The notes below the pieces were generated by a model. It was not told where the DNA came from, did no database searches, and saw only the letters and a program-made list of their open reading frames with translations. From positions 1 through 64,000 of the forward strand of contig JAKPQA010000145.1 in assembly GCA_029547025.1 (NCBI GenBank): DNA of 64,000 nt, read 5' to 3'. Each line of letters starts with the position of its first letter. Position 1 is the first letter of the stretch. This document shows, piece by piece, positions 22,246 through 40,257 of the stretch. Position numbers and translations under genes: made by a program. The DNA is from Armatimonadota bacterium (GTDB taxonomy: Bacteria; Armatimonadota; Zipacnadia; UBA1398; JAKPQA01).

Positions 22246-23208
22246 TTACCCCTCGATCCGGCAATCCACACCCAAAGAAGCAGCCGCGTCTCGCAGAGCC
22301 TGCATCGTCTCCGGCGTCGGTGCTTCGGTTCCTTTCAGCGGGTACTCCGACCCGAGGCTCGCGTGTTTGCTCTCACCGAGTCGGTGGTACGGCAGAAGCT
22401 CCATGGGCGCATAGGGAGCTCGCTCCCGCACGGCCTGGGCGATGGCGCGGATGGCCTCGGGCGAGCCATTGAACCCGGGAATCACTGGGACACGAGCCAC
22501 GAGCGGGACGCCTCGAGTCCCCAGCTTCGCCAGGTTGGCCAGAAGCCGATGGTTGCTGCTCCCGGTCCACTCGCGGTGGGCCTCGGCGTCGGCGTGTTTC
22601 ACATCGAACAGAAGCAGGTCGATGCGGTCCAGCATCGGCTCGATCACGGAGAACGGTGCCTCACCTGAAGTGTCGACGGCCACGTGGCGGCCACGGCGGC
22701 GGAACAGGGAGAGCAGAGCATCGAGGAACACGGGCTGGGCAAAGGGCTCGCCACCCGATATGGTTACGCCGCCGCCCGAGTTCTCATAGAAGGGCGCGTC
22801 GCGCTCGGCTTCCGCAACAACCTCACCCGCGGTGGCCTCTCGGCCACTCATCACCAGGGCCCGCGCATAGCACTCTCGGGTGCACGTTCCACAGTCCTGG
22901 CACCGGTCGCGCAGGATCTGACGGATTCCGTCACGGACGACGACGGCGCCCCGAGGGCAGTTCTCGATGCACCGATCGCACCCGATGCAGTTGCGGGGGA
23001 AGAACATCAGCTGCGGCTGCCCATGTACCGCCTCGGGGTTGTGGCACCACCGGCAGCGAAGGGGGCACCCCTTGAAAAAGACCGTGGTGCGGATACCCGG
23101 GCCGTCGTGGATCGCGAACCGCTTGATGTCGAAGATGATCCCCGTTACGGCTTCGAGGGCGTCCGGGGCGGTAAGGGTGCCGGGTGATCCGGCCGGATCC
23201 AGTCCCAA
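22246..23208 (-). CDS. Glycyl-radical enzyme activating protein (radical SAM, PflA-like, with ferredoxin-like inserts)
   Basis: FAIHDGPGIRTTVFFKGCPLRCRWCHNPE (CxxxCxxC), CIGCDRCIENCP, CQDCGTCTRECY, GGGVTISGGEP; TTG start overlapping the sigma-GGDEF stop is inferred. Confidence 0.88.
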   Translation of the reverse strand: MGLDPAGSPGTLTAPDALEAVTGIIFDIKRFAIHDGPGIRTTVFFKGCPLRCRWCHNPEAVHGQPQLMFFPRNCIGCDRCIENCPRGAVVVRDGIRQILRDRCQDCGTCTRECYARALVMSGREATAGEVVAEAERDAPFYENSGGGVTISGGEPFAQPVFLDALLSLFRRRGRHVAVDTSGEAPFSVIEPMLDRIDLLLFDVKHADAEAHREWTGSSNHRLLANLAKLGTRGVPLVARVPVIPGFNGSPEAIRAIAQAVRERAPYAPMELLPYHRLGESKHASLGSEYPLKGTEAPTPETMQALRDAAASLGVDCRIEG

Positions 23209-23209
23209 C

Positions 23210-24640
23210 TCATTCCAACTCCGCAGCACGAGTTGCGGCGAGTGCGCTCCGCAGGAGCGATGGCGTTCCCGTGGCGCGCAGTCCGCTGAAGAGCGCGTGA
23301 GCACGGACGTAGCCGTTGCCGCCTGCTTCTCGTGCCGCGTTCAGGGCGCGGCGCGAGGCCTCGATCAGGCCCGCGTCATCCAGGGCGTCCACCGGGTACA
23401 CTGCCACACCCGCTTTGATCGTCAGATACTTGCCCCGCGGTGATGTCGCACCGATTCGCTCCTGGGCCACACGCTTCACCAGACGATCGGCCAGCCGGGC
23501 CGCCGTGTCGCCGGTCTGGGGTAAGATGAGTCCGAAGGTGCCACCTTCCAGCCGAGCTACCACGTCGACGCGACGGATGTTCGTCCCGAGCAGCATGGCC
23601 ACCCGGCGCAGGGCCTCGTCGCCCGCCGCCGCCGTCGCCCGGCGGTTGTACTGGGCCAGACCGTCGATATCGATCAGCAGAGCGGCCAGCTCGTGTGAGT
23701 ATCGCTCGGCCCTCAGGAACTCCTCCCGAAGTCGCTCCTCGAAGTAGTGCAGCCCGCGGAGGCCGGTCAGGTCGTCGCGTGCGCCACGCTCCTCGATCAG
23801 CCGGAGCTGGGCCCGCCGGCGCTCGATCTCCGCGCGAAGGCGCAGCGAGGCCTCGCGCTGCTCCTCCCGTGCCAGCGAGCTCCGCAGCTTCCGCAGCGCC
23901 GCGCGGACCAGGTGGGACACGTAGTTGCACGATACTCCCAGTCTGCGGGCGATCTCCGTCTGACTGAAGTCGCGAAAGAAGAAGTACTCGATGACCTCGC
24001 GCTCGATGGACTTGAGCTTCGCCAGCGAGCTATCCAGAACGATGCGGTCCTCCACCGGCAGTTCCAGCGTCGAGTGCTGCAGGCTCCGGATCTTCTTGGT
24101 ATCCAGCCGGTGGGCACGCCCCGACTCCTCGTCCTCATCGGAGACATCCAGCGAACCCACCTGGAAGGTGTTGCGGGTCCGCAGCACTTCGAGCACCGCG
24201 TCCTCGCCGATGTTGACCTCCTTGCAGATCTCGGCCACCGACGGGTACCGCCCGTGCTCTTGGGTGAGCTGATCAATGGCGCGGCTGACCTTCTGGTTGA
24301 GCTCGTACAGCCAGCCGGGTTCACGGATGATGGACTTCCGGTCGCGCAGATAGTGCTTGATCTCACCGAGGATCAGATGCGTGGCATAGGTGATGAACTT
24401 GACCCCACGCTCGACATCATACATGTCCACGGCCTTGATGAGGCCAATGTAGCCCTCCTGCACCAGATCCTCGGTGGGCTCTGAGGTGTTGGGGATGCTC
24501 CGGGCCACACTCTCGACCAGGCCCGAGAACTGCGCGACGATGCGGTCGCGGATCTCCGGTGCGCGGGTCTTGGCGTACTCCCGAAACAGCCGGTCCAGTT
24601 CCTCAGGCGGTATCTGCCCGCCCGATCGGGTACGACCCAT
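23210..24640 (-). CDS. Sigma-70 family RNA polymerase sigma factor fused to a C-terminal degenerate GGDEF domain
   Basis: Region 2 LVQEGYIGLIKAVDMYDVERGVKFITYATHLILGEIKHYLRD; region 4 REVIEYFFFRDFSQTEIARRLGVSCNYVSHLVRAALRKLR; then DDLTGLRGLHYFEERL...LLIDIDG...RRVDVVARLEGGTFGLILP in the same frame. Confidence 0.92.
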   Translation of the reverse strand: MGRTRSGGQIPPEELDRLFREYAKTRAPEIRDRIVAQFSGLVESVARSIPNTSEPTEDLVQEGYIGLIKAVDMYDVERGVKFITYATHLILGEIKHYLRDRKSIIREPGWLYELNQKVSRAIDQLTQEHGRYPSVAEICKEVNIGEDAVLEVLRTRNTFQVGSLDVSDEDEESGRAHRLDTKKIRSLQHSTLELPVEDRIVLDSSLAKLKSIEREVIEYFFFRDFSQTEIARRLGVSCNYVSHLVRAALRKLRSSLAREEQREASLRLRAEIERRRAQLRLIEERGARDDLTGLRGLHYFEERLREEFLRAERYSHELAALLIDIDGLAQYNRRATAAAGDEALRRVAMLLGTNIRRVDVVARLEGGTFGLILPQTGDTAARLADRLVKRVAQERIGATSPRGKYLTIKAGVAVYPVDALDDAGLIEASRRALNAAREAGGNGYVRAHALFSGLRATGTPSLLRSALAATRAAELE

Positions 24641-24833: not shown

Positions 24834-26066
24834 CTACTTCTGCTGCTGCATCGTCTCGAGCACATCGTAGATGGGCTTGAGCACCGCCACAGCCACGAAA
24901 CCGACAAAGCCGCCGAGTCCCACGATCATGATCGGCTCAATCAGCGACGTGAGCCCCTTGATCATGGCGTCGACTTCCTCTTCGTAGAACACGGCGACCT
25001 TATTGAGCATCTCGTCCAGCCGACCGGTCTCCTCGCCCACCTGCACCATCTGGGTGGTCATCAGGGGGAAGATGCCGGACTGCGCAAGGGGCTCGCAGAT
25101 CCGCTCGCCCCCGTGGACCGCAGTGCGGGCTTGGCGGATTGCGTTGGCAATAACGGCATTCCCGGCCGTGGCCTCCACGATCTCGAGGCAGCGGAGAATC
25201 GACACCCCGCTCGCCAGCAGTGTCGCCAACGTGCGGCAGACACGGGCCACCGAGATCTTGAGAACAAGATCCCCCACGATCGGGATCTTGAGCTTGAACG
25301 AGTCCAGCTTCAGCCTCCCCGACTCGGTGCGTCCGACCATCTTCCAGGCCGTCACGACGCCAATGATGACCAGGATGGGGAACCACCAGTACTGGCGCGC
25401 GGTGGCCCCGCTGTTGAGCAGGACTGTGGTGAGTACAGGTAGTTTGTAGTCTTCGCCCACAAGACCGGCAAAGATCGTCTTGAACTGGGGGAGAACGAAG
25501 AACACGATGCCAATGGTCATGAGCAGCGCGAAGGCGAACACCACGCAGGGATACATCATGGCCGACTTGATCTTGGTGCGGATCTCCTGCTCGTTCTCCA
25601 GGTAGCCCGCGATGCGCTGCAGGATCACGTCCAGGATGCCGCCGATCTCAGCGGCCCGGATCATGTTCACATACAGGTCGTTGAACACCCGAGGGTGCTT
25701 CGCCAGTGCGTCGGCCAGACTCAAGCCCGACGCGATGTCCAGTTTGACCCCCTGAATGGTCTCTCGGAAGAAGGAGTTCTTGGTCTGCGCCGCCAGGATA
25801 TCCAGGCTCTTGAGGATCGTCATGCCGGCGTCGATCATGGTTGAGAACTGCCGCGTGAACACGACCAGTTCTTTGAGCTTGACTCCCTGAAAGCGGGCGT
25901 TGATGCTCGCCATCTTGCCGCCTTCGGAGGTGACGACGGCGATGTCGACTGGGTGGTAGCGCAGCTCGCGCATCCGCTGGATCACGGCATCGCGGCTGTC
26001 TGCCGTGATGGTTGACCTTACCGTATTGCCCGCCGCGTCGACGGCCTCATATCGGAATACCGGCAT
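24834..26066 (-). CDS. pilC: Type IV pilus inner-membrane protein PilC / GspF family
   Basis: FTRQFSTMIDAGMTILKSLDILAAQTKN, SGVSILRCLEIVEATAGN, MVQVGEETGRLDEMLNKVAVFYEEEVDAMIKGLTSLIEPIMIVGLG. Confidence 0.95.
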   Translation of the reverse strand: MPVFRYEAVDAAGNTVRSTITADSRDAVIQRMRELRYHPVDIAVVTSEGGKMASINARFQGVKLKELVVFTRQFSTMIDAGMTILKSLDILAAQTKNSFFRETIQGVKLDIASGLSLADALAKHPRVFNDLYVNMIRAAEIGGILDVILQRIAGYLENEQEIRTKIKSAMMYPCVVFAFALLMTIGIVFFVLPQFKTIFAGLVGEDYKLPVLTTVLLNSGATARQYWWFPILVIIGVVTAWKMVGRTESGRLKLDSFKLKIPIVGDLVLKISVARVCRTLATLLASGVSILRCLEIVEATAGNAVIANAIRQARTAVHGGERICEPLAQSGIFPLMTTQMVQVGEETGRLDEMLNKVAVFYEEEVDAMIKGLTSLIEPIMIVGLGGFVGFVAVAVLKPIYDVLETMQQQK

Positions 26067-26140: not shown

Positions 26141-27238
26141 CTAGTGCCGGCCACCGAACGAACCCGAGCAGAGACGATTAAAGTTATCCTTATCCAGGCA
26201 CTTCAGTTCGGCTTCTTCCCGTGTCACGCGGCCCGAGAGCACTAGCTCGGCCAGGGCCGCATCCATCGTTATCATGCCAAGCTCCTTGCCCGTTTCGATG
26301 GCCGACTGAATGTGAAACGACTTCCCCTCGCGGATGAGGTTGCGGATGCCGGAGGTGGCGACCATGAACTCGATGGCGCAGGTTCGCCCCGTCCCGCCCG
26401 CCAGAGGCACCAACTGCTGACTCACCACACCCTGGATCGCCCCCGCGAGCTGGACCCGAACCTGCTCCTGCTGATCGGGCGGGAACACGTCGATGATGCG
26501 GTCGACCGTCGCCGGAGCGCTGTTCGTGTGCAGGGTTGAGAACACGAGATGGCCGGTTTCGGCCACGGTCAGGGTGGCTTCGATGGTCTCCATGTCGCGC
26601 ATCTCGCCGATGAGGACCACATCCGGGTCCTCTCGCAACACGGCGCGGAGTGCCGCGGGATAGCTCAGCGTGTCCTTGCCCAGTTCCCTCTGGTTGATCA
26701 TGCTTTTGTTGTGCTTGTGAATAAACTCGATCGGGTTCTCGACCGTCATCACATGCACGTTCCGGACCTGGTTCACGTGGTTGATCATGGTGGCCAGCGT
26801 GGTCGACTTGCCACTGCCCGTGGGTCCCGTGACCAACACCAGACCACGCGGGAGCTCCGTGAAGGCCTTCAGGACGTCGATGCCGGGAAGGTTCATCTCC
26901 TCCATGGTCGGGATGCGATCCGAAATGGCCCGGATGGCGGCGCCGACCGAGCCCCGTTGGCGGTACACGTTGAAGCGGAAGCGGCTCAGGCCCTTGACGC
27001 CGTAGCTGAAATCCAGCTCGCGGGTCTCCTCGAACTCCTCAATCTCGCGATCGGTGAGCACATCGTAGACCAGCCGTTGTGTGTCGTAGTCAGTGCATCG
27101 TTCATACTGAGTGGGTTCCAGCTCGCCGTCGATGCGGAGCATGGGGGGCAAACCCACCGTGAGGTGAAGGTCGGAGGCTTTGCGCTCGACGGTCAGTGTG
27201 AGAAGCTCGTCAATGTGAACGTCTCGAATGCTTTGCAC
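26141..27238 (-). CDS. pilT: Type IV pilus retraction ATPase PilT
   Basis: ASDLHLTVGLPPMLRIDGEL, VTGPTGSGKSTTLATMINHVN, AALRAVLREDPDVVLIGEMRD, LAELVLSGRVTREEAE. Confidence 0.95.
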   Translation of the reverse strand: MQSIRDVHIDELLTLTVERKASDLHLTVGLPPMLRIDGELEPTQYERCTDYDTQRLVYDVLTDREIEEFEETRELDFSYGVKGLSRFRFNVYRQRGSVGAAIRAISDRIPTMEEMNLPGIDVLKAFTELPRGLVLVTGPTGSGKSTTLATMINHVNQVRNVHVMTVENPIEFIHKHNKSMINQRELGKDTLSYPAALRAVLREDPDVVLIGEMRDMETIEATLTVAETGHLVFSTLHTNSAPATVDRIIDVFPPDQQEQVRVQLAGAIQGVVSQQLVPLAGGTGRTCAIEFMVATSGIRNLIREGKSFHIQSAIETGKELGMITMDAALAELVLSGRVTREEAELKCLDKDNFNRLCSGSFGGRH

Positions 27239-27259: not shown

Positions 27260-28177
27260 CTAAGGCGCGCTGGCGTTGCGGAACAGGGATTCCTGCTCGA
27301 GGGCAGCCCGCCCCGCCTCTTCCATCAGTAGCAGGAGCCGGGGCATGTCCAGGCCCAAGGCCAGCACCGCGCGCTGGTCCGTGTATGGTAGCTGCGTCAG
27401 GCCCTCGGCCGGCACGTAGCGCGGCCCCTCCTCGGTCACTTCGAGACACAGGCCGTAGGCCATGCCGTTGGCCACGTGGCAGAGCAGAGCCGCCGCCCGA
27501 GCCTCCTCCGGCGCGTCCATCGGGCTGTGGTGGAAGCGGATGGGGATAGTGAGCGCGTCGGGTATACCCCAGTTCTCGCACAGGGCCCCCGCCAGCTCCG
27601 CGTGGTTGAACCCGAGCACCTTCGCCTCGGCGTCCATGATGGGGCAGCCGGTCTCCTCATAGAGGCGGATGACCTCGGCGAACTGATCCCGGGCGTATCG
27701 TTCGAGAATCGTCTCCCCGATGTCGTGCAACAGGCCGATCATGAAGGCCTGCTCCGGAGGGCCGTCGTGCCTGGACTCGGCGAGACGGCGGGAGCAGGTG
27801 GCGCACAGCATCGAGTGGCGCCAGAGACGTGCCCGGAACAGGTCAGTCTCCTCGGCCCGCCTGGCGCCAAACAGGTCGAACGTCGCCAGTCCCACCACGA
27901 TGGAGCTCACCTTGCGAAAGCCCAGGAATACGATGGCATCGCGGAGCGAAGCGACGGACCGGGGCAGGCCGAAGAACGCGGAGTTGGCCATGCGAAGGAT
28001 CTTCATTGCCAGCGTCTGCTCGCTGAGGATCACGCGCTCCAGGTCGGTAGCGCTGGCCGACGGCGACTCGAGCATCTCCAGGACTCTCATGGCGATCTGC
28101 GGCAGTGGCGGCACGTCGTCGACGTGCTGCACAAACAGCTCGAGCCGCCGCTTCACAAGCGCATCGGTCGTCTCCAT
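27260..28177 (-). CDS. HDOD domain-containing signalling protein
   Basis: DDVPPLPQIAMRVLEML, ILRMANSAFFGLPRSVASLRDAIVFLGFRKVSSIVV, FMIGLLHDIGETIL; ATG start at 28177. Confidence 0.88.
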   Translation of the reverse strand: METTDALVKRRLELFVQHVDDVPPLPQIAMRVLEMLESPSASATDLERVILSEQTLAMKILRMANSAFFGLPRSVASLRDAIVFLGFRKVSSIVVGLATFDLFGARRAEETDLFRARLWRHSMLCATCSRRLAESRHDGPPEQAFMIGLLHDIGETILERYARDQFAEVIRLYEETGCPIMDAEAKVLGFNHAELAGALCENWGIPDALTIPIRFHHSPMDAPEEARAAALLCHVANGMAYGLCLEVTEEGPRYVPAEGLTQLPYTDQRAVLALGLDMPRLLLLMEEAGRAALEQESLFRNASAP

Positions 28178-28209
28178 TCCACTCCTGTCTAGCCAGCGAG
28201 AACGGTGGG

Positions 28210-29925
28210 CTACGTCGAGCAGACCCGGAGCATCTCTTCGGGTGTGGTGATGCCCTGGGCTACCTTGAGCATCGCGTCCTCGGCCAGGGTCCTCATCCCC
28301 TGCTCGCGCGCGATCTCGGCGATCACATGCGACGGCTCCTCCTTGAGGATTGCCTCCCGGATTTCGTCGGTGATCACCATGAACTCGTAGCACCCGGTTC
28401 GCCCGCGGTAGCCCCGCTGGCGGCACGCTTCACAGCCTCGGCCCCTCATGAAACGAGCGTTTCGCATCTGGTCTTTGGGGAACCGGATGCGGCGCAGGCT
28501 CTTCTCCGGAGGCTGGTAGGGTTCGGCACACTTGCTGCACACGGTCCGCAGCAGGCGTTGAGCCAGGACGCCCTGCACCGCCGAGGCGATGAGGAAGGGT
28601 TCAATTTGCATTTCACCCAGGCGAGCCACGGCTCCTGGAGCGTCGTTGGTATGGAGTGTGGAGAATACCAAGTGGCCCGTGAGGGCGGCTTCGGTGGCGA
28701 TGACGGCGGTCTCCCTGTCACGGATCTCGCCAACCATGATGATGTCGGGGTCCTGGCGCAACATGGACCGCAGAACGCTGGCAAAGGTCAGTCCGGCTTT
28801 CACATTGACGTGGGCCTGCGTGAGTCCGGGGAGCTGGTACTCGACCGGGTCCTCGACGGTGATGATGCACTCCTGGCCCGTGTTCTTCCGGCTCAGCACG
28901 GAGTACAGGGTCGTGGACTTGCCGCTGCCGGTCGGTCCCGTAACCAGGATGATGCCCCAGGAGCGACTGATCACCTCGGAGAAGCGTTCCATCGTATCGG
29001 GGGCAAACCCGAGTTTCTCGAGCCCCAGGCTGATGCCGCTCTTGTCGAGAACACGCAGGACCATCTTCTCGCCATTGACGCCCGGCAGTGAGCTGACGCG
29101 GAAGTCGTACTCGCGCCCCTCGAAAGCCAGCGCGATCCGGCCATCCTGGGGGATGCGCCTCTCGGCAATGTCCATCTCGGCCATGATCTTGATACGCGAG
29201 ATGAGCGGCGACTGCACTTGTTTGGGAATCGGTATGGGAGCGTCAGCGAGGATGCCATCCACGCGGTATCGGACGCGGACGCGGTCTTCCTCCGGCTGGA
29301 CGTGGATGTCGCTGGCGCCTTCGCGAAGCCCTTCGGCGATGATCGTGTTCACGAGCTTGATGATCGGTGCATCCTCGGCCAGGTGCAGGGCCACCGTCGG
29401 ATCGGGTTCATCCTCGGTTGTCTTGGCCTCGATGGCCCCCTCGCCGGGCCCGAAGGAGCTCAGGACGTCGGAGATCTTGGCCCGGAGGGCATCTTCGGCG
29501 GAGCCGACTCGCTTGAGTGTGCGATCGATGTCCTCCTCGCAGGCGATGGCCGACACGACGTTGTAGCCCGTGATCAGCTTGAGCTCGTCGATCCACAGCA
29601 CATTGGTGGGGTTGGCCATGGCGACGGTGAGCCGCCGTCCTTCGAGCCGAATGGGCACTGCCTTGTACTGGCGCATCATGTGGGGCGGGATGATATGAAG
29701 CAGTTCGTCGAGGACGTCGATCTCCTCGAGGTCGACGAAGGGGATCCCCCACTGCTGGCCCTGGCACTTGACGCGGTCCTTCTCGGTGATGACGCCCATG
29801 TTGACGAGAACCTGGCCGACCGGCTCCCCGGTCTCCTTGCAGGTGGCGAGCGCCTGTTCCACGGCCTCGCGCGTGGCGGCCGTGTTCTCCAGGAAGATGT
29901 CAACTATGGAGTGAGAATGTAGCAA
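28210..29925 (-). CDS. pilB: Type IV pilus assembly ATPase PilB (GspE family) with N-terminal MshEN-like domain
   Basis: VTGPTGSGKSTTLYSVLSRKN, SMLRQDPDIIMVGEIRDRETA, CSKCAEPYQPP...CEACRQRGYRGRTGCYE zinc motif. Confidence 0.95.
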   Translation of the reverse strand: MLHSHSIVDIFLENTAATREAVEQALATCKETGEPVGQVLVNMGVITEKDRVKCQGQQWGIPFVDLEEIDVLDELLHIIPPHMMRQYKAVPIRLEGRRLTVAMANPTNVLWIDELKLITGYNVVSAIACEEDIDRTLKRVGSAEDALRAKISDVLSSFGPGEGAIEAKTTEDEPDPTVALHLAEDAPIIKLVNTIIAEGLREGASDIHVQPEEDRVRVRYRVDGILADAPIPIPKQVQSPLISRIKIMAEMDIAERRIPQDGRIALAFEGREYDFRVSSLPGVNGEKMVLRVLDKSGISLGLEKLGFAPDTMERFSEVISRSWGIILVTGPTGSGKSTTLYSVLSRKNTGQECIITVEDPVEYQLPGLTQAHVNVKAGLTFASVLRSMLRQDPDIIMVGEIRDRETAVIATEAALTGHLVFSTLHTNDAPGAVARLGEMQIEPFLIASAVQGVLAQRLLRTVCSKCAEPYQPPEKSLRRIRFPKDQMRNARFMRGRGCEACRQRGYRGRTGCYEFMVITDEIREAILKEEPSHVIAEIAREQGMRTLAEDAMLKVAQGITTPEEMLRVCST

Positions 29926-30128: not shown

Positions 30129-33100
30129 TCAGAACCCTGTGGCGAGCTGGGGTGGAGCTTTGTCGCCATCGGCGTATTCGATCTCGGGCGTTAGGAAGAT
30201 CACCAGTTCCTGGGGTCGCCGCTGAACCTGCCGGTTCTTGAACAGGCGGCCAAAGAACGGGATCTCGCTGAGAATGGGCACCTTGCGGATCGTCTCGATC
30301 TCCTCGTCGCGGATCAGGCCGCCGATCACCATCGTCTGGCCGTTTTCGAGGCGGACCTTGGTGGTCGCGCGGCGCGTGGCGATCTGCGGGACGCCCGCGG
30401 TGAACCCGGACACGGTCGACGATTCCGCCGACAGCTCGGCCGTCAGCGACCCGTCGTTGGCGATCCTTGGGGTGAACTCCAGGATGATGCCGACGTCGAC
30501 TTTCTCGATGTCGGTGACGGCGGTTCCGTTCACGATCTGCACGACCTGGAACCGCAGTTCGTCACCGATCTGTATCCGTGCCTTCTGGCCGTCGAGCGCC
30601 TTGACGTTCGGGCGGGCCAGCAGCTTGGACCTCTGGTCGGTCTTGACGAAGTTGAGTACGGCCTGGAAGTCGAAGATCGAACGATCCAGCGGGCTGAACC
30701 CGATGCCGTCGTTGTAGCCGATGGGGACATCGGGATCGTCGGACCCGCGTTCGGTGAGATTGACGCTGCCGAAATCCCACTCGATGCCGACATCCTTGGC
30801 GGCGGTTCGGTCGAGGTCGACGATCATGGCATGCAACGTCACCTGATGCTGAGGCACGTCGAGTTCGTCGATCAGTGCGAGGGCCCGTTCGACGAGCGCT
30901 TTGGGCCCGACCAGCGTGATTCGATGGGTCTCTTCGTCCCCGACCACGACCATCTGGCGGCCCACGGCGAGCTCCGCGGCAGTGCCGCCCGGCGCCGCGC
31001 CCGCTCCCTCGGCCGCCGGAGGCATGGGGCCGGCCGCGCCGCCGACCGCGGCCGGCGCATAGCCCAGCGCTCCTACGGCCGCTGGTATTACGGGCATGGC
31101 CTGGCCAATGCCACCGGTCGGTGCGGCGGATCGGACTCCGACGTTGCTGCCGATGACGTTGGCGCCCTCTTTCGCGGCGGAGAAGTAGTTCTTGATGGAC
31201 TCGTAGGCGTATTCGGTCGATACGTGGTCGAGCTGCACCACGCGGATGACGTCCGGCGACTTGGGCCGCTGCGACTCGGGCTTGTCCTGCTCCTGCAGAA
31301 CCGTGAGCACCTGGGCCACGCGCGCCGGAGCGCCATTGAGGACGACAACGGCGTCGGTTGGGGTTGCCGTGACCTCGGCACCCATGCCTTTGATGAGCTC
31401 ATCGGCCAGACTCGCCATGTCGTCCGGCGTCCGGTTCACGGGGGTGTAGGTGTAGGAAATGGGCTCGCCGGTCCCCGGTGCATCCCACTTCCGCAGTGCG
31501 TCCAGGGCGGTGGAGACGTCGGCCTTCGAGCCCATCGCGACGATTCGGTTTGTGGCCAGATCGGTCTCGAACTTGCAGGTGGGGAAGCTGATACTCGCCA
31601 ATCGCGCCAGGCTGGCCGCGTCGACACTGGCGGCGGCGTAGTCGCCGACGGACTCATACGCGATGCGTCCGCCCTGATCCAGCGCCCGCGCGAACGACAC
31701 GGCCGCATCGATGTCGCGCGACGTGCCGGTCAGCAGGAGCGTTCGCGTCTGTGCCACGGGTGTGGCGTCGACCAAGGGAAAAGCCTTCTTGAGGGCCTCG
31801 ATCACAGCGGCCGGTTCGGCACGGTCGGGTTCGTATGTGACGGTTACGCGTTCACCCGTCTTGGCCTCGAGCTCCTTGAGCAGGGCCACGGCGCGGCTCA
31901 CGCGACTGGGTGTGCCTTGAAGAACGAGCGCACCCGTGCCTGGCTGCTGCGTGACCTTCAGCTCCTCGCCGACCACGGTCTTGAGGAACTCCTGCATCTT
32001 CTGAGGATCGCCCGACGACAGGGCGTAGACCTGCATGCCCGGGCTGGCGCCGTGCGAGGCTGTTCCCTGGGCGGCGCCCGGCTGCTCGAGCTCGCCGCCG
32101 TCGATGCGCACGAGCGTGGCCAGCGCAGCGGCCACTTCTTCGGCCTGGCCGATGAGGACGATGATGCCCGCATCGTCATAGGCCTCCGCGAACACGGCGG
32201 GGTGGAGCCAGCCGAGGGTCTTGGTCAGTTCGCTTGGCTTCAGCGTCTGCGCCGTGTACCGATCGACCACGCGCGATGAGGGAGGCACGACCTCTTGGAT
32301 GCGTTCTTTCGAGGCGACCACATAGGCGTTGCCGACCTTCTTCCACGCCAGCCCGCTCATCATGGTCAGCAGGTTCATGGCCTGTTCGAAGTCGACGCCA
32401 TCCACGTTCATGGTCACTTTGCGTGGCTCACCCGTGGCCGGGTCCTTCACGCTCGCGTCATCGACGATCACGCTTCGGCCGTGGGAGTATGCCAGCATCG
32501 ACAGGGCCACCGGGAGGGGCGTGCCGGTGAACGCCAGTTGCAGGTTCGCCGGCGCGTTCGGATCGACGCGGGGCACGTCCTGGGGCCCGGGTGCCGTTTC
32601 GTCAGCCCCGCCGGCAACGATAACGGGCGGGTTCGGGGTCTCGAAGGTCCCGGGTGCCACGCCGGGCGCGGGGGCGGGCACCGGAGCGGGCGCATCGGAT
32701 CCGGATGGCGGTTCGGCGAGCGTGGTTGACTTGGCGGTATCCATGGTCGCCGTGGCCACCGGGGCGCTGACGGGTGCCGGGGCGGTTGGGCTGCCACCAA
32801 ACCCGGCCTGGTTCATACCGTAGGGGCCCAGGGGCGCTGGCGGCGCCGTGCCACCCGCGTGTGGTGCCGGCGCGAGATCCAGGGACGCCGGTGCGGCGGG
32901 GGGCATGAGGCTCACCAGGACGCCGCAGCCGTTCTCGATCGGTGCGACATGGTAGGTTCCCGCCCCGTCGAGGTCGAGGGTGGCGCGCACGGTGTCGCGC
33001 GAGGGCTGGGCCAAGGCGACGGATCCGATGCCGCCAGCATTGACGGGAAGCGAGGTGGGAAGCCCAGGGGCCAGCACGGCCCCCTGGATGTCGAGGATCA

Positions 33101-33719
33101 CGTCGTCGCCGCTGGACTTCGCCTCGTAACGCACCGCGCGATCTGCCAGAAGGCGGATGGCGATGGGCTCGCCGGTGGCACGGCGGATCAGCTCGGCGAC
33201 GCCGATCTCGGCCGGGGTGTTCGGGCTGGCGGGCGCCGTCTCATCCGGGAGGGCTCGTGGCGAGTCGAAGGTCACAACGAGTGTGCACCCATCGTCCGAG
33301 CGCGCAATGTCGACCCGAGGCCGTGCACGGAGGTACAGGACCGCGTTGGCCACGGAAGGGTTCTTGCTGTCCTGGCCGAGCAGAACCTTGGCCAGTGCTC
33401 CCATGCCGACGATGGTCGGCCGCGATGCCTGATCGCGGTCGAAGACAGCGCCTGGGAACTGCATCAGCAGGCGCGTCGGGTTGGTGAGCCGCTTCGCCTC
33501 ATACCTGATGGGCGTCGCGGCGAAGAAGGTAATGCGAGCCCCTCCGGTATCGGCGTGCACGCGGACGCCAATCACGCCGCGCTCCAAGGGTGATGCCGGT
33601 GAGTTGCTCTGCGAACCAAGGCTCGGAGTGGACCCCCACACCGAGCTCGCTGCAGCCAGGGCCCCGACGAGAGCAACCGCAGCAATCATCGAGGTGTTTC
33701 TGCAGGGTCGCAAGCTCAC
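30129..33719 (-). CDS. pilQ: Type IV pilus secretin PilQ (AMIN domains, secretin N domains, secretin)
   Basis: N-terminal AMIN-like repeats; C-terminal VTLHAMIVDLDRTAAKDVGIEW, KLLARPNVKALDGQKARIQIGDEL, TTKVRLENGQTMVIGGLIRDEE, VPILSEIPFFGRLFKN, ELVIFLTPEI. Confidence 0.95.
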   Translation of the reverse strand: MSLRPCRNTSMIAAVALVGALAAASSVWGSTPSLGSQSNSPASPLERGVIGVRVHADTGGARITFFAATPIRYEAKRLTNPTRLLMQFPGAVFDRDQASRPTIVGMGALAKVLLGQDSKNPSVANAVLYLRARPRVDIARSDDGCTLVVTFDSPRALPDETAPASPNTPAEIGVAELIRRATGEPIAIRLLADRAVRYEAKSSGDDVILDIQGAVLAPGLPTSLPVNAGGIGSVALAQPSRDTVRATLDLDGAGTYHVAPIENGCGVLVSLMPPAAPASLDLAPAPHAGGTAPPAPLGPYGMNQAGFGGSPTAPAPVSAPVATATMDTAKSTTLAEPPSGSDAPAPVPAPAPGVAPGTFETPNPPVIVAGGADETAPGPQDVPRVDPNAPANLQLAFTGTPLPVALSMLAYSHGRSVIVDDASVKDPATGEPRKVTMNVDGVDFEQAMNLLTMMSGLAWKKVGNAYVVASKERIQEVVPPSSRVVDRYTAQTLKPSELTKTLGWLHPAVFAEAYDDAGIIVLIGQAEEVAAALATLVRIDGGELEQPGAAQGTASHGASPGMQVYALSSGDPQKMQEFLKTVVGEELKVTQQPGTGALVLQGTPSRVSRAVALLKELEAKTGERVTVTYEPDRAEPAAVIEALKKAFPLVDATPVAQTRTLLLTGTSRDIDAAVSFARALDQGGRIAYESVGDYAAASVDAASLARLASISFPTCKFETDLATNRIVAMGSKADVSTALDALRKWDAPGTGEPISYTYTPVNRTPDDMASLADELIKGMGAEVTATPTDAVVVLNGAPARVAQVLTVLQEQDKPESQRPKSPDVIRVVQLDHVSTEYAYESIKNYFSAAKEGANVIGSNVGVRSAAPTGGIGQAMPVIPAAVGALGYAPAAVGGAAGPMPPAAEGAGAAPGGTAAELAVGRQMVVVGDEETHRITLVGPKALVERALALIDELDVPQHQVTLHAMIVDLDRTAAKDVGIEWDFGSVNLTERGSDDPDVPIGYNDGIGFSPLDRSIFDFQAVLNFVKTDQRSKLLARPNVKALDGQKARIQIGDELRFQVVQIVNGTAVTDIEKVDVGIILEFTPRIANDGSLTAELSAESSTVSGFTAGVPQIATRRATTKVRLENGQTMVIGGLIRDEEIETIRKVPILSEIPFFGRLFKNRQVQRRPQELVIFLTPEIEYADGDKAPPQLATGF

Positions 33720-34816
33720 GGGGCGGCTCCTCCAATCCCAAGGGTTAGCCGTCGCTGCTGGTTCTCGACCTCGACGGCTCCCTGTGTGACGGACACGACG
33801 CGAAACTCGCGCCCGCCTGCTCGGAACGTCTGACCCGCACGTACGTAGAACGTGTTGGTGCCATCGGTGATCACTGCCGAGGAGCGGCCGTCGCTAGCGA
33901 CAACGGTGCCGGTGACCCTCAGGTTCAGCGCCGGCTTGGCGCCGGACCGGGGCCCGGTTGTGGCCTGCGGGAACCCCTGCCCGCCCAGGAAGGCGGTTCG
34001 CTGGGGCTGGGGCTGCACGGTGGCGGGCGCCCCGACTTCGGGCAGCGGGACGCCGGGTGCCGTCGCCCCGATGGCCGGTGGCAGGCCACTGGCGATGGCG
34101 GCTGGCGGGGCCGATGGTGGCGCCGACGGGGCCGCCGCCGTGGCCGGCTTCTCTGCACCCGCCGAGGCAGTGGCGGGCGGTGTCTGGGCCGTGGCCGTCT
34201 CGGCGCGTTCACTGGCTGGTGGCGCCTCACCCGATGGCGCCTGTCCGCGGAGGGCGGCGAGCTGCGTCACAGAGGGACGCTTGAACGGGCTCGGGCCCTG
34301 TCGCAGCCGGAAGGCGCGACCGTCGGGCAGCGGGCCGGCTTTCTCGGCCTGCCGGGCCTTGTCGATCTCGTCGGGATCCATCCCCGTGTAGGAGGTGCCC
34401 TCCGCTATGGCGGCGAGCTCCGTGCCGGGTGCGGACGCCGCGGCGGCCTGCGAGGGGCGCTGCTTGCTGTAGGTGCCCCAGGCGGCCCAGAGCCCTGGCT
34501 GCACGCCGGGTGGGCATTTCTCGTCTGTCTTGGTCACGGGTGCGGAGGGTGTGCCCTGGGCAGATGCCGTGGGGGCAGGTTTCTCCGCCGTTGCCGGTGC
34601 CGTCGCTTTCCGTGCTTCTCCCGGCGGCCGGGCTGCCTTGGCTGGTTCCCGCTGGGTGCCTTTGGCGTCAGCGCTGGCCGGAGTTACTGCCGTCTTCGCC
34701 GGCGCCGCGGCAGGTTTGCGGAACAGGAGCATGTAGAGACTCCCCGCCAGGACAACCATGAGCACGGCCACGATAGCGAGCTGGGCCTTACTTGCCCTCA
34801 CCGCCGCCACCTCCAT
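33716..34816 (-). CDS. PilP-like pilus assembly protein (Ala/Pro-rich linker)
   Basis: One TM helix, long Pro/Ala linker, C-terminal LNLRVTGTVVASDGRSSAVITDGTNTFYVRAGQTFRAGGREFRVVSV; position between pilO and pilQ. Confidence 0.7.
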   Translation of the reverse strand: MEVAAVRASKAQLAIVAVLMVVLAGSLYMLLFRKPAAAPAKTAVTPASADAKGTQREPAKAARPPGEARKATAPATAEKPAPTASAQGTPSAPVTKTDEKCPPGVQPGLWAAWGTYSKQRPSQAAAASAPGTELAAIAEGTSYTGMDPDEIDKARQAEKAGPLPDGRAFRLRQGPSPFKRPSVTQLAALRGQAPSGEAPPASERAETATAQTPPATASAGAEKPATAAAPSAPPSAPPAAIASGLPPAIGATAPGVPLPEVGAPATVQPQPQRTAFLGGQGFPQATTGPRSGAKPALNLRVTGTVVASDGRSSAVITDGTNTFYVRAGQTFRAGGREFRVVSVTQGAVEVENQQRRLTLGIGGAAP

Positions 34817-35651
34817 CGCTCGAGGTCCCCGAGTCCTTCTTCTCCGCGTCCGCCTTGGGTGTGGGCGGGCGGACAGCGAAGGCCACGGCACTCAGATAGG
34901 CGCGGACGTTGGGTTCCACGTCTTTGGCATGGGGGTCTCGTTCCGCCTCCAGCCGGATATTCCGGACAGCCACCAACTCGCGGAGCCGCCAGCCATCGGC
35001 CGCAGGATAGGCCAGTCCTTTGATGAACTCGAAGAGGGCGCTGTACTGACCCGCCACCTCGATGTCCATCGACAGCAGGCTGGCACTTCTCGTGAGAACC
35101 TTGTAGACTTTATCGTATTCATGATCTTTCTCGATCGGCCGCTTCTCCTCGGCCGACATCTTGTTCCAGGCCTCCTCGGCCTTCTTGCGGGCCTCTTCAT
35201 CGGTGGCCGGGACCTCGTCTTGGGGTTTCTTTCGGATCTCGAGCTTCTTGTAGATGCCGGGCTTGACCGACCTCACCTCGACGCCGGTACGCCGCCCGAG
35301 GACTTCGAGGTCGCGCAGCACGGCGGGCACGAAGTCGGCCTGAAGGATGACGTTGGGCACGCCTTGTTGTGCCAGCTCCTGGGCCTGCTTGGCGTCGCGA
35401 GCCAGGCGGGAGACGAAGGCGGTCTCGGAGCGCAGGCGTTCGAGGGTCGCGGCCTCACTGGACTCGCTGGCCACCAGGCTGGCGACCTCTTCGGCCCGTT
35501 GCTTGGTTTCCTCGAGCGTCTTGTTGGAGCGAGCCACCGCGGCGATGGACTGGGCGCGCAGGAACAGGGCGACGGCGAGGACCACGACACACGCCAGCAC
35601 GGTGATGATGATGGCGAGTTTGCTTTTCGGGTTCATCCCACGCTTGTTCAC
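34788..35651 (-). CDS. pilO: PilO-like pilus assembly protein
   Basis: Single N-terminal TM, coiled-coil, C-terminal ferredoxin-like region; position between pilN and pilP. Confidence 0.75.
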   Translation of the reverse strand: MNKRGMNPKSKLAIIITVLACVVVLAVALFLRAQSIAAVARSNKTLEETKQRAEEVASLVASESSEAATLERLRSETAFVSRLARDAKQAQELAQQGVPNVILQADFVPAVLRDLEVLGRRTGVEVRSVKPGIYKKLEIRKKPQDEVPATDEEARKKAEEAWNKMSAEEKRPIEKDHEYDKVYKVLTRSASLLSMDIEVAGQYSALFEFIKGLAYPAADGWRLRELVAVRNIRLEAERDPHAKDVEPNVRAYLSAVAFAVRPPTPKADAEKKDSGTSSDGGGGGEGK

Positions 35652-36229
35652 TGTAGGTACTCCCCGATCACATAGTTCAGCCCTGCGTCAAAGCTGAACT
35701 CGATGTACTCCTCGTCCGACGTCTTCGACACGTTGGTCTGCAGTAGGGTCATGCGTTTCTCGTCGAAGGGCGTCCGGCGGCCGATCCGGACCATGGCTTC
35801 GGCCACGTCGGCCTGTCGTGCCGCCTTGCCGTGGACTTTGACTTTGTGCGACCAGTCCTCTTGCTTGAACTCCGAGGCGACCTGCTCGGCCCAGACGCCG
35901 CGCGGCATCTCTTCCTGGATGTGCATGAGCACTCGGAGCCAGTCGACCACGCAGTACTGGCTCTCCCGGACCATGGTGAACACGGGGGCTAGCTGCTCCG
36001 ATTCGTCCTTCATGCGCTGGACCCGGTCGGCCCGGGCTTCGTTGTCCGCGATCTGCTTCTCGTATCGGGCGATGCTTCTGAGGACTTCGTACCGCCTGGC
36101 GACTTTGGGACCCGCCAGCCACAAGGCGAGGCAGAGAACCACGAAGCCCGCGAGCACGCACTCGGCGGTGACCCTCGATTGCGCTTGGCGTTCACGCTGA
36201 CGGGCCCCGATCAGGTTCACATGAAGCAT
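35648..36229 (-). CDS. pilN: PilN-like pilus assembly protein
   Basis: MLHVNLIGARQRERQ (variant of the PilN NLLP-type N-terminus) followed by a TM helix; position after pilM. Confidence 0.75.
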   Translation of the reverse strand: MLHVNLIGARQRERQAQSRVTAECVLAGFVVLCLALWLAGPKVARRYEVLRSIARYEKQIADNEARADRVQRMKDESEQLAPVFTMVRESQYCVVDWLRVLMHIQEEMPRGVWAEQVASEFKQEDWSHKVKVHGKAARQADVAEAMVRIGRRTPFDEKRMTLLQTNVSKTSDEEYIEFSFDAGLNYVIGEYLQ

Positions 36230-36276: not shown

Positions 36277-37452
36277 CTACTGCTGGCGCCGCTGCAGCGC
36301 GACCCCGAACTGGCTGGGATCGGCGGCGAATGCGTAGGATCCAGTCTTCATATGGTTCGTGAGCGTCAGTCCCACAGCCACTCCGGCCAAGGGGGAAGCC
36401 GCTGCCAGGTATGCCGGATCGAACCGGCCGCGGTCCAAGGCCAGCGAGTCGATGAACTGCCGCCGCGACACCGGCACGCCTACGGCGGCGGCCAGATAGC
36501 GGTCCAGGTTGCGCATCACGGACGTACCGCCGGTGAGCAGCAGGTGGCGGACCGTGCCGCCTTCTGACACATCCTGGAACTGGGCCTGGAAGAAGCCCAG
36601 CGATAGGCGTAGCTCATAGGTGAGGTCGTCCAAAACCGGCTGGATCGCTTCGGAGACGCGGGCCGACCGCTCGTTCAGCGCCCCGGCGACATCGGGGGTA
36701 ACGGCGACGGCCTCCGTCTCTTTGATGGCTTCTGCCTCGTGATAGGTCACTCCGAGTTGCGCGGCGATGGCCTCGGTGAGAGCCCGTCCGGCGCCCGGGA
36801 GAGTGCGATAGAGCACGTAGCTTCCGGAGGCGACGATGGTGATATCGCCGTAGCTCTCGCCCAGGCGCACGATACCCACGTTCGACTGCAAGACGTCGGG
36901 GTCGTGGGTGCCGTAGATCATGGACCGCAGGAGCGCGAACGCCTCGATGTCGACGAAGGCGGGTGACAGCCCCGCGCGCTGGAGCACCTGAACGCGGGAG
37001 TCGACGAGCTGGGTCTGGGCCGCCACGACCATGACATCGAGCATGCGGCCGTCTTCGGTCTGGCGCTCGGAGACAATCTGGGGCTCGACGATGCTCTCTT
37101 CGAGGGAGAATGCGATGAACTTCTCGGCCTCATAGAGCGCGGTCTGCCTTAGGCGCGCCTCGCTCATGTGCGGGAAGGTCTGGGGGCGCGCGATGACCCG
37201 GGGTCCGCCCACCGCCGTGGCGGCGTCGCGGACGGTCAGTCCGGCGGCATCGAGCAGCTCGCGAAGGGCCGCGGCGGTCGCTGCCACATCGGTGACGATG
37301 CCATCCTCGATGGCCCCCGGCGGCGTTCGGATCGAGGCGAGGGCGACGAGCTCGGGCCCGGAGCGGCCCGGAGCGACGTATGCCGCCTTGATCGCGTAGC
37401 TGCCGATGTCGACCCCGATCAGTTCGCGCTTGGCGCCGCCGAACAGACCCAT
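36277..37452 (-). CDS. pilM: PilM-like actin-fold pilus assembly ATPase
   Basis: LIGVDIGSYAIKAAYV, EAEKFIAFSLEESIVE, LLLTGGTSVMRNLDRYLA, DPAYLAAASPLAGVAVGL. Confidence 0.92.
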   Translation of the reverse strand: MGLFGGAKRELIGVDIGSYAIKAAYVAPGRSGPELVALASIRTPPGAIEDGIVTDVAATAAALRELLDAAGLTVRDAATAVGGPRVIARPQTFPHMSEARLRQTALYEAEKFIAFSLEESIVEPQIVSERQTEDGRMLDVMVVAAQTQLVDSRVQVLQRAGLSPAFVDIEAFALLRSMIYGTHDPDVLQSNVGIVRLGESYGDITIVASGSYVLYRTLPGAGRALTEAIAAQLGVTYHEAEAIKETEAVAVTPDVAGALNERSARVSEAIQPVLDDLTYELRLSLGFFQAQFQDVSEGGTVRHLLLTGGTSVMRNLDRYLAAAVGVPVSRRQFIDSLALDRGRFDPAYLAAASPLAGVAVGLTLTNHMKTGSYAFAADPSQFGVALQRRQQ

Positions 37453-37515
37453 GGGGGCTCCCCCTCGCATTCCCGACCCGCGACCGCCACTCCGCCGGTG
37501 CGGCCACGGCCCGCG

Positions 37516-37896
37516 CTATGCCGTGTCACGCTCCAGCTCGGCGAGGTAAGCGGCAAGGCGGTCGCGGTCCTCGTCGCTCAACGCGTCCATGCGCACACCG
37601 AGCTCGAAGCGTGCGTCCGAGCCGGGCTGTGGCTCACAGCGGACGACTTCGCCAGCGAACACCACGTGATGGCAGACCGGCGATCCACTGTGAGCCCGGA
37701 GCAGTAGTTCGAGCTCCAGCCGCGTACCGGGGCCATGCTCATGCCGCGTCAGCAATAGGAGGCCTCCGGCACTCAGGTTGCCACTGACCGCGCCGCGGAG
37801 ACGGGAGGGACCTGGCCCGGTGGCATCCACCAGGCGGTAGTAGATGGCGGAGCGGTCCTCACGCCTTGGGTTGCGTCTGCGGTCTGACCCGGACAT
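37516..37896 (-). CDS. PilZ domain protein (predicted c-di-GMP receptor)
   Basis: RRNPR (RxxxR) near the N-terminus and NLSAGG ((D/N)xSxxG) are both canonical PilZ ligand motifs. Confidence 0.85.
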   Translation of the reverse strand: MSGSDRRRNPRREDRSAIYYRLVDATGPGPSRLRGAVSGNLSAGGLLLLTRHEHGPGTRLELELLLRAHSGSPVCHHVVFAGEVVRCEPQPGSDARFELGVRMDALSDEDRDRLAAYLAELERDTA

Positions 37897-38827: not shown

Positions 38828-39649
38828 TCAGACCTCGTACGTGGTGTCCCTCCCGGCGGCGAACACGCCGTCGGGAGCCGGGAGAGGCCGGACGAGTGGG
38901 GGTGCCGGTGTCGCCGGTGCCGTCTGGGCCAGCGCCGGGGTCACATAGGACGGCGAGTGGCGATCGGCGGCGAACTGGATCGGGGCGTGAACCGACGGTG
39001 CCGGGACCGCCTCGAGTACCGAGTCCAGGCCGTCCCCCGAGTCGGAGGAGGTGGTCGGTCCCTCAGGGGAGGCGGCTGCTGGCGTGGGTTTGGGGATGTG
39101 GGGCGCGACGCCTCTTCGCGAACGGGGCGTGTTCACTGAGGGAACGACGAGCCGTGGCACCGGAGCCGGGTCGGCGCCCCGGACCATGGCCGCGCCGGTG
39201 TCGGCCGTCTGGGGTGGCGCCATCCACGGGGTTCCGGGGCCCGTTGTGGGGCCGTGCGCCGCAGAGGCCGTGACCCGCGACGCCTCGGGAAGCCGGTCGC
39301 GGCCGGCTGGCATGTGCTGAACGAGCACCAGGGCGGCCACCGTTGCCGGCGCGAGGAACGCGGCGGCCGATCGGATGACCCGCTCCCGGCGTCTCCGGCG
39401 GAGCTGCTCGACCTCGAGGCGTCCGCGGAGGGCCAGGCGGAATCCGCGCCCCGGCTCGACCCTTGGGCCAGAGGCCAGGAGTTCTTGGGCTCGGCGTGCC
39501 CGCGCCAGCCACTGCCCGCACTCGGGGCATGATGCGACGTGGGCCTCGCACGCCGCTCGCAGGCGCGGGTCCAGCTCGCCGTCCATGTACTCGTCTACCA
39601 AGGCGGCAAAGCCCTGGCACTCTGTGCGGCTCATTGTCTCAGTCATCAC
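38828..39649 (-). CDS. Anti-sigma factor with zinc-finger (zf-HC2)
   Basis: LVDEYMDGELDPRLRAACEAHVASCPECGQWLARAR; overlaps the ECF sigma gene. Confidence 0.85.
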   Translation of the reverse strand: MMTETMSRTECQGFAALVDEYMDGELDPRLRAACEAHVASCPECGQWLARARRAQELLASGPRVEPGRGFRLALRGRLEVEQLRRRRRERVIRSAAAFLAPATVAALVLVQHMPAGRDRLPEASRVTASAAHGPTTGPGTPWMAPPQTADTGAAMVRGADPAPVPRLVVPSVNTPRSRRGVAPHIPKPTPAAASPEGPTTSSDSGDGLDSVLEAVPAPSVHAPIQFAADRHSPSYVTPALAQTAPATPAPPLVRPLPAPDGVFAAGRDTTYEV

Positions 39650-40257
39650 TCCCAGGGAAGCACTTCATCGACGTAGGGCATGGCGCGGATCCTGAAGGCT
39701 TCGCGGGCTCGGTGCAGGCGGTTTTTCACGCTCGAGACCGTGCATCCGAGCGTGGTGGCGATCTCGTCGTATGAGAGCCCTTCGATGTCACGTAGGTAGA
39801 GCACGATCTGGTGTTTCTGGGGGAGCGTGTTCATCAGGTGGCGAATGCGCGCCTGCGTTTCCTGCTGCTCGACCACATGGGCGGTGGCGTCGCCGCCCGC
39901 GTGGTTGATGGCCTCGTCGAGCCCGACCTCGTCGCGGCGGCCGCGCCGCCGGAGGTAGTCGCGGCAGGCGTTGGTTGTGATCTTCAGCATCCAGGCGGTG
40001 AACTGGGACCGGTCCCTGAGGCGCGGCAGGGACCGATAGGCTTTGACGAAGGCCTCCTGGGCCACGTCGTCGGCGTCCGTGGCGTCGCCGAGCAGCCGAA
40101 AGGCGAGATTCACCACTTTGCCGGCGTGCAGTGAGACGAGCTCGTCGAAGGCGTCGACGTCGCCGCGAGCCGCACGGTGAGCCAGCGCCTCCACGCGCGT
40201 GGGGGCAACCGAGGCTATCGAGTCAGGGCGCGCCACCCCTATGGCCTCCAGCGCCAT
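39646..40257 (-). CDS. ECF-type RNA polymerase sigma factor
   Basis: LAFRLLGDATDADDVAQEAFVKAYRSLPRLRDRSQFTAWMLKITTNACRDYLRRRGR and YLRDIEGLSYDEIATTLGCTVSSVKNRLHRAREAF. Confidence 0.95.
   Translation of the reverse strand: MALEAIGVARPDSIASVAPTRVEALAHRAARGDVDAFDELVSLHAGKVVNLAFRLLGDATDADDVAQEAFVKAYRSLPRLRDRSQFTAWMLKITTNACRDYLRRRGRRDEVGLDEAINHAGGDATAHVVEQQETQARIRHLMNTLPQKHQIVLYLRDIEGLSYDEIATTLGCTVSSVKNRLHRAREAFRIRAMPYVDEVLPWE

Follow-up and report, generated by a model that had tools for sequence, protein, structure and literature searches.

A candidate c-di-GMP-responsive sigma factor with a degenerate GGDEF domain, encoded beside type IV pilus genes in Armatimonadota

Introduction

The second messenger c-di-GMP acts on transcription via DNA-binding regulators and riboswitches; in Streptomyces it also does so via an anti-sigma factor. 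The Streptomyces system involves sigma-WhiG, which is sequestered by RsiG in a c-di-GMP-dependent manner and is also bound by the GGDEF domain of RmdB (PMC13232838). GGDEF domains can themselves serve as receptors: PopA has a dead active site (A-site) and an intact RxxD (PMC12564702; PMC3359988), the latter being named as the inhibitory-site (I-site) motif in PMC12564702, and the degenerate GGDEF receptor CdgG has likewise lost the A-site and kept RxxD (PMC3359988). Among sigma factors, those of the ECF41 group are controlled by a fused C-terminal domain and have no obvious anti-sigma factor (PMC3426412).

Here we analyse a gene that joins these themes, located on a 64,000-nucleotide stretch of DNA from an Armatimonadota bacterium (the window). 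It had been predicted to encode a sigma factor fused to a GGDEF domain with a dead A-site and an intact I-site, and thus a candidate c-di-GMP-sensing sigma factor. If this is true, the sigma factor would carry its own receptor for c-di-GMP, the most direct way for the messenger to reach promoter choice. Our full-text literature searches, which mostly miss subscription journals, returned no description of such a sigma-GGDEF protein.

Results

The sigma-GGDEF gene and its domains

The predicted gene is indeed one uninterrupted open reading frame of 476 codons plus stop (Table 1). Pfam places regions 2, 3 and 4 of sigma-70 together in this chain, at residues 35-253, as had been claimed, and a GGDEF domain at residues 288-442; each of the four matches exceeds its curated cut-off. 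The C-terminal domain was thereby recovered as GGDEF-like, with its start corrected from that originally given to DDLTGL at residue 289. The subfamily nearest to the sigma part in HMM comparisons is SigB/SigF/SigG (184 bits to the SigBFG model, which is below the model's own cut-off of 234), and its nearest PDB match is S. aureus sigma-B. The sigma regions are complete in the window protein and are conserved, with a mean identity of 48% across 37 representatives of less than 60% identity. Judged by its sequence, the protein is a group 3 sigma-70 factor of the SigB/F type.

Table 1. Features of the sigma-GGDEF gene and of neighbouring genes in the window
Feature	Position	Strand	Remarks
Radical-SAM activase-like ORF	22249-23304	-	Overlap between listed GTG start and 3' end of the sigma-GGDEF gene; true start probably downstream
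Sigma-GGDEF fusion gene	23210..24640	-	476 aa plus stop; coding part 24640..23213
Sigma-70 region 2	24335..24538	-	Residues 35-102; Pfam PF04542, 4.3e-16
Sigma-70 region 3	24119..24304	-	Residues 113-174; Pfam PF04539, 3.9e-14
Sigma-70 region 4	23882..24025	-	Residues 206-253; Pfam PF04545, 2.2e-11
Helical linker	23780..23881	-	Residues 254-287; AlphaFold model; length varies among homologues
Degenerate GGDEF domain	23315..23779	-	Residues 288-442; Pfam PF00990, 2.3e-28
R310	23711..23713	-	Equivalent of PleD I-site R313
RRVD, primary I-site RxxD	23564..23575	-	R356 and D359, equivalents of PleD R359 and D362
EGGTF, replacing GG(D/E)EF	23534..23548	-	Residues 365-369
R386	23483..23485	-	Equivalent of PleD I-site R390
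PilC	24837..26066	-	Inner-membrane platform of type IV pilus; direct upstream neighbour of sigma-GGDEF gene
PilT	26144..27238	-	In pilus operon
HDOD protein	27266..28426	-	True start probably downstream of listed GTG
PilB	28216..29925	-	N-terminal MshEN domain; in pilus operon
PilQ secretin	30135..33719	-	In pilus operon
PilP/T2SSC-like	33722..34891	-	Weak match, E 0.007
PilO-like	34794..35651	-	Weak, by position, E 0.027
PilN-like	35654..36229	-	Weak, by position, E 0.013
PilM	36283..37470	-	In pilus operon
PilZ domain protein	37522..37896	-	Intact RxxxR...NxSxxG c-di-GMP motif
ECF sigma and zf-HC2 anti-sigma gene pair	38834-40257	-	At upstream end of pilus gene run

In the AlphaFold2 model of the window protein the sigma and GGDEF domains are confident (mean pLDDT 87) and the GGDEF fold is intact; the arrangement of the domains is unreliable (pTM 0.51, and 0.41 for a second model). 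Foldseek matched sigma-B and sigma-WhiG structures as well as c-di-GMP-bound GGDEF domains, including those of GcbC, DgcB and PleD. A single helix (238-285) in the model extends from the recognition helix of sigma-4 as far as the GGDEF domain. When a homologue whose linker is shorter was modelled, this helix was broken and ended early, so that rigid coupling of sigma-4 to GGDEF is not a property of the family, and the notion of one rigid helix as a family trait was abandoned. Heptad-spaced linker lengths, as for a coiled-coil register, were not seen either, the lengths peaking at 26-27, 31 and 36-37.

Loss of the catalytic site and retention of the I-site

The motifs EGGTF and RRVD were found exactly where the original prediction had placed them, and LAQYNR was confirmed at the FKxxND segment, as residues 328-333. 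The protein lacks the GG(D/E)EF signature and the metal and GTP ligands that mark an active diguanylate cyclase; at sequence level it instead resembles a degenerate GGDEF receptor, with a degenerate A-site and an intact I-site made up of RxxD and its partner arginines. Both halves of the claim, A-site lost and I-site kept, therefore stand, and the I-site is more complete than the RxxD then reported. When the window protein was aligned with PleD, whose sequence had been checked against its PDB chain, it proved to have equivalents for all four of R313, R359, D362 and R390, the residues of the PleD I-site that contact c-di-GMP. The full four-residue site, like the pilus operon described below, had not been noticed in the original prediction.

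In the alignment of 91 fused homologues, R310 and D359 are invariant (91/91), R356 is kept in 90/91 and R386 in 89-90/91. In keeping with what had been predicted, RxxD is conserved (90/91) and an intact GG(D/E)EF occurs in no homologue (0/91). By contrast, the metal- and GTP-ligand positions (D324, N332, D341 and position 367) and the FKxxND positions vary freely. The difference is also evident when the 153 columns of the GGDEF domain are ranked by relative entropy over the 37 representatives of less than 60% identity, among which the mean pairwise identity of this domain is 28%: R310, R356, D359 and R386 rank 2, 6, 1 and 3, respectively, whereas the catalytic columns fall at ranks 64-147, except for F369, a structural core residue.

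GG(D/E)EF is present in 35 of 40 other GGDEF domains from Armatimonadota, as against 0/91 fused homologues. RxxD alone proves little, because 38/40 of the ordinary domains, a comparison set biased by being drawn from hits to the query, also carry it; we dropped it as evidence of a receptor role and used the conservation ranking in its place. The argument for a receptor therefore rests on the selective retention of the I-site after catalysis was lost. The I-site has been kept under selection, and its constraint, combined with free catalytic columns, is the pattern that selection for c-di-GMP binding without catalysis would be predicted to leave in these sequences.

The exceptions are few. Lineage L016 (genome G049), a divergent fused protein, lacks R356 and R386 and is a natural I-site exception, perhaps together with G061 and G062, which belong to the same family; two reduced genomes lack R386. 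The equivalent of WspR R198 (R313 of the window protein) is kept in 64/91 fused homologues. R303 and E306 are near-invariant in the fused family and less so in other GGDEF domains, and may form a family-specific interface.

Distribution and origin of the family

The original prediction concerned a single protein. Full-length homologues (E<=1e-100) occur in 184/291 Armatimonadota genomes, nearly always one per genome; among them are 137 of the 194 good-quality genomes of the phylum, and 107/156 genera are represented. Since the fusion is phylum-wide, an assembly frameshift, a concern raised at the outset, and likewise a chance fusion, are ruled out. The homologues, together with neighbouring genes that run in the same sense, exclude an artefact. 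A fusion split over two frames, which may be an assembly frameshift or a genuine break, was seen in the fragmented assembly of genome G031 (L046, contig C212:2546-3827).

A search of 60 relatives gave more than 12 full-length homologues at 37-49% identity. When genome contigs were searched, a single-sequence query gave no match and an alignment query was needed to recover the family, yielding 80 further loci (the best 80 of 497 relatives). Among these best 80, every locus named to phylum level or finer belongs to Armatimonadota, the groups with the fusion comprise Fimbriimonadia, Chthonomonadia, Ca. Zipacnadia, Ca. Hebobacteria and others, and the nearest relative is a Ca. Zipacnadia MAG. A viral scan returned sigma-only relatives. 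The fusion appears to be the rule across this little-studied phylum.

In a maximum-likelihood tree of the sigma domain, a 100/100 branch splits 91 fused proteins from 14 unfused SigB/F-like paralogues. The fused proteins thus have a single-clade origin, and the tree, as built from these sequences, is compatible with one fusion event. Within the window's own class the fusion is found only in the window's genome (G000) and in G004, G005, G027 and G031. The same five are the only class members with PilC homologues of at least 50% identity, adjoining the fusion; in members without the fusion, no PilC homologue exceeds about 44% identity.

Genomic context

The sigma-GGDEF gene is the last of a pilus operon in the window, transcribed from one strand in the order PilZ-PilM-N-O-P-Q-PilB-HDOD-PilT-PilC-sigma, with a gap of 196 nt between PilC and the sigma gene. 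Ahead of the PilZ gene, the same-strand run includes genes for an ECF sigma factor, a zf-HC2 anti-sigma factor and an AAA ATPase. Because the ECF sigma/anti-sigma pair sits at the upstream end of the operon, the pilus genes may be under the control of a second sigma factor. PilC is the immediate upstream neighbour, in the same orientation, in 52/74 relatives with enough flanking sequence (15/27 after removal of close copies), and the order pilQ-pilB-pilT-pilC-sigma is visible in many relatives. About 30% of relatives, mainly Chthonomonadaceae, are without pilus context. The place of the gene in the operon suggests that the sigma-GGDEF protein either controls type IV pilus assembly or receives feedback from it.

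No RsbV/RsbW-like partner-switch genes lie beside the sigma-GGDEF gene in the window operon. An unfused SigB/F paralogue in a classmate is situated behind STAS (RsbV-like) and HATPase_c_2 (RsbW-like) genes, and in the window's own genome an HATPase_c_2 gene immediately precedes the unfused copy on contig C219.

The window's genome also contains 61 N_methyl prepilin-like genes spread over many contigs, many of which start near-identically (GFTLIELLVVIAIIAILAAILF). Upstream of 40 prepilin genes of this genome no convincing promoter motif was found, and dyad counts were no better than in shuffles. GGGTATT-like words, which resemble the SigB -10 element, are over-represented there, but were rejected as a promoter since their positions are scattered and no consistent -35 element accompanies them. 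The annotation of Fimbriimonas ginsengisoli, a fimbriate and non-motile bacterium, lists a single fliA sigma gene and 79 pseudopilin genes (PMC4072686).

With regard to other c-di-GMP components, the window's genome has eight GGDEF matches, the sigma-GGDEF protein included. Two relatives with 1.5-Mb genomes encode just two GGDEF proteins each, namely one intact GGEEF cyclase (REC-GGDEF-like) and the sigma-GGDEF protein with RxxD, a set suggestive of a minimal cyclase-effector pair. The MshEN domain of PilB was considered as a further c-di-GMP receptor and discarded, as its first motif, EPVGQVLV, is without the usual arginine.

Discussion

Proposed mechanism

We consider it probable that the sigma-GGDEF protein is a one-component sigma factor, gated by c-di-GMP and linked to the expression of pili. 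From the observations above we infer c-di-GMP binding, its effect on sigma and the regulon as follows. The SigB/F-type N-terminal domain would recruit RNA polymerase to a dedicated set of promoters, while the C-terminal GGDEF domain, having lost its cyclase active site, would serve as the c-di-GMP receptor. The ligand would bind the I-site through R356, D359 and R386, with R310 contributed by the same or a second GGDEF domain, and would switch sigma activity by altering either how the GGDEF domain dimerises or how it docks beside sigma region 4. The GGDEF domain might then stand in for the separate RsbW-like anti-sigma factor that presumably serves the unfused paralogue. Type IV pilus and attachment genes, the protein's own operon among them, would be the likely targets. 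This reading yields precise, testable predictions for R356, D359, R386 and R310, and makes the protein a candidate regulator of type IV pilus attachment in Armatimonadota.

Alternative explanations

The same I-site could act between proteins instead of within one. c-di-GMP would then cross-link GGDEF domains and bring the sigma factor to a partner such as a cyclase, the pilus machine or the cell pole, so that it is localised or sequestered and not switched in cis. PopA does reach the cell pole through its I-site (PMC3359988), and in the two reduced genomes an intact REC-GGDEF cyclase with RxxD is the only other GGDEF protein. However, pilus genes are the only conserved neighbours of the sigma-GGDEF gene, and the covalent attachment of the GGDEF domain to sigma-4 points to direct control; we regard such recruitment as rather unlikely. 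It is improbable, too, that the domain is a docking or dimerisation module whose conserved arginines and aspartate are structural or protein-binding and do not contact c-di-GMP. The family-specific conservation of R303 and E306 suggests an extra interface, and RmdB offers a precedent in that its GGDEF domain binds sigma-WhiG while the enzymatic activity of its EAL domain is not needed (PMC13232838), yet the conserved residues fall on all four I-site positions of the GGDEF domain of PleD, and elsewhere the domain tolerates change.

Two further readings concern what the A-site has become. A residual or unorthodox diguanylate cyclase, or a domain binding some other nucleotide at the A-site, would agree with the intact GGDEF fold in the models and with the activity of some degenerate-motif enzymes, for example VCA0965 with AGDEF (PMC3974145); the metal and GTP ligands are nevertheless lost here and their positions variable across the family, which makes this reading very improbable. 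Finally, the degenerate A-site is what one would see in a functionless, decaying domain or an accidental fusion, but one and the same architecture recurs, its I-site residues invariant, in 184 genomes from 107 genera, which renders that explanation scarcely credible.

Comparison with known systems

The proposed one-component, c-di-GMP-gated sigma factor can be set beside four described systems. It resembles the ECF41 factors in being a sigma factor with a fused C-terminal regulatory domain, regulation by the GGDEF domain being predicted; it differs in that ECF41 factors belong to the ECF family and carry a domain unrelated to GGDEF. We know of no link between ECF41 and c-di-GMP. The partner-switch factors SigB, SigF and SigG, which work with RsbV/RsbW, are the closest sigma family by HMM, and in Armatimonadota STAS and HATPase genes adjoin the unfused paralogue; the sigma-GGDEF protein, unlike these factors, has a C-terminal GGDEF domain, lacks neighbours of this kind in the window operon, and belongs to a separate clade. 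As with sigma-WhiG and RsiG in Streptomyces, c-di-GMP would control a group 3 sigma factor. There the ligand glues a separate anti-sigma factor to the sigma factor, whereas here sigma factor and presumed receptor share one chain, and among the genes of the window operon none resembling RsiG was noticed. With PopA and CdgG, finally, the protein shares a lost A-site, a kept RxxD and a role, predicted in the present case, as effector and not enzyme. The output distinguishes them: in PopA and CdgG it consists of receiver domains or a localisation factor, in the sigma-GGDEF protein of a complete sigma factor.
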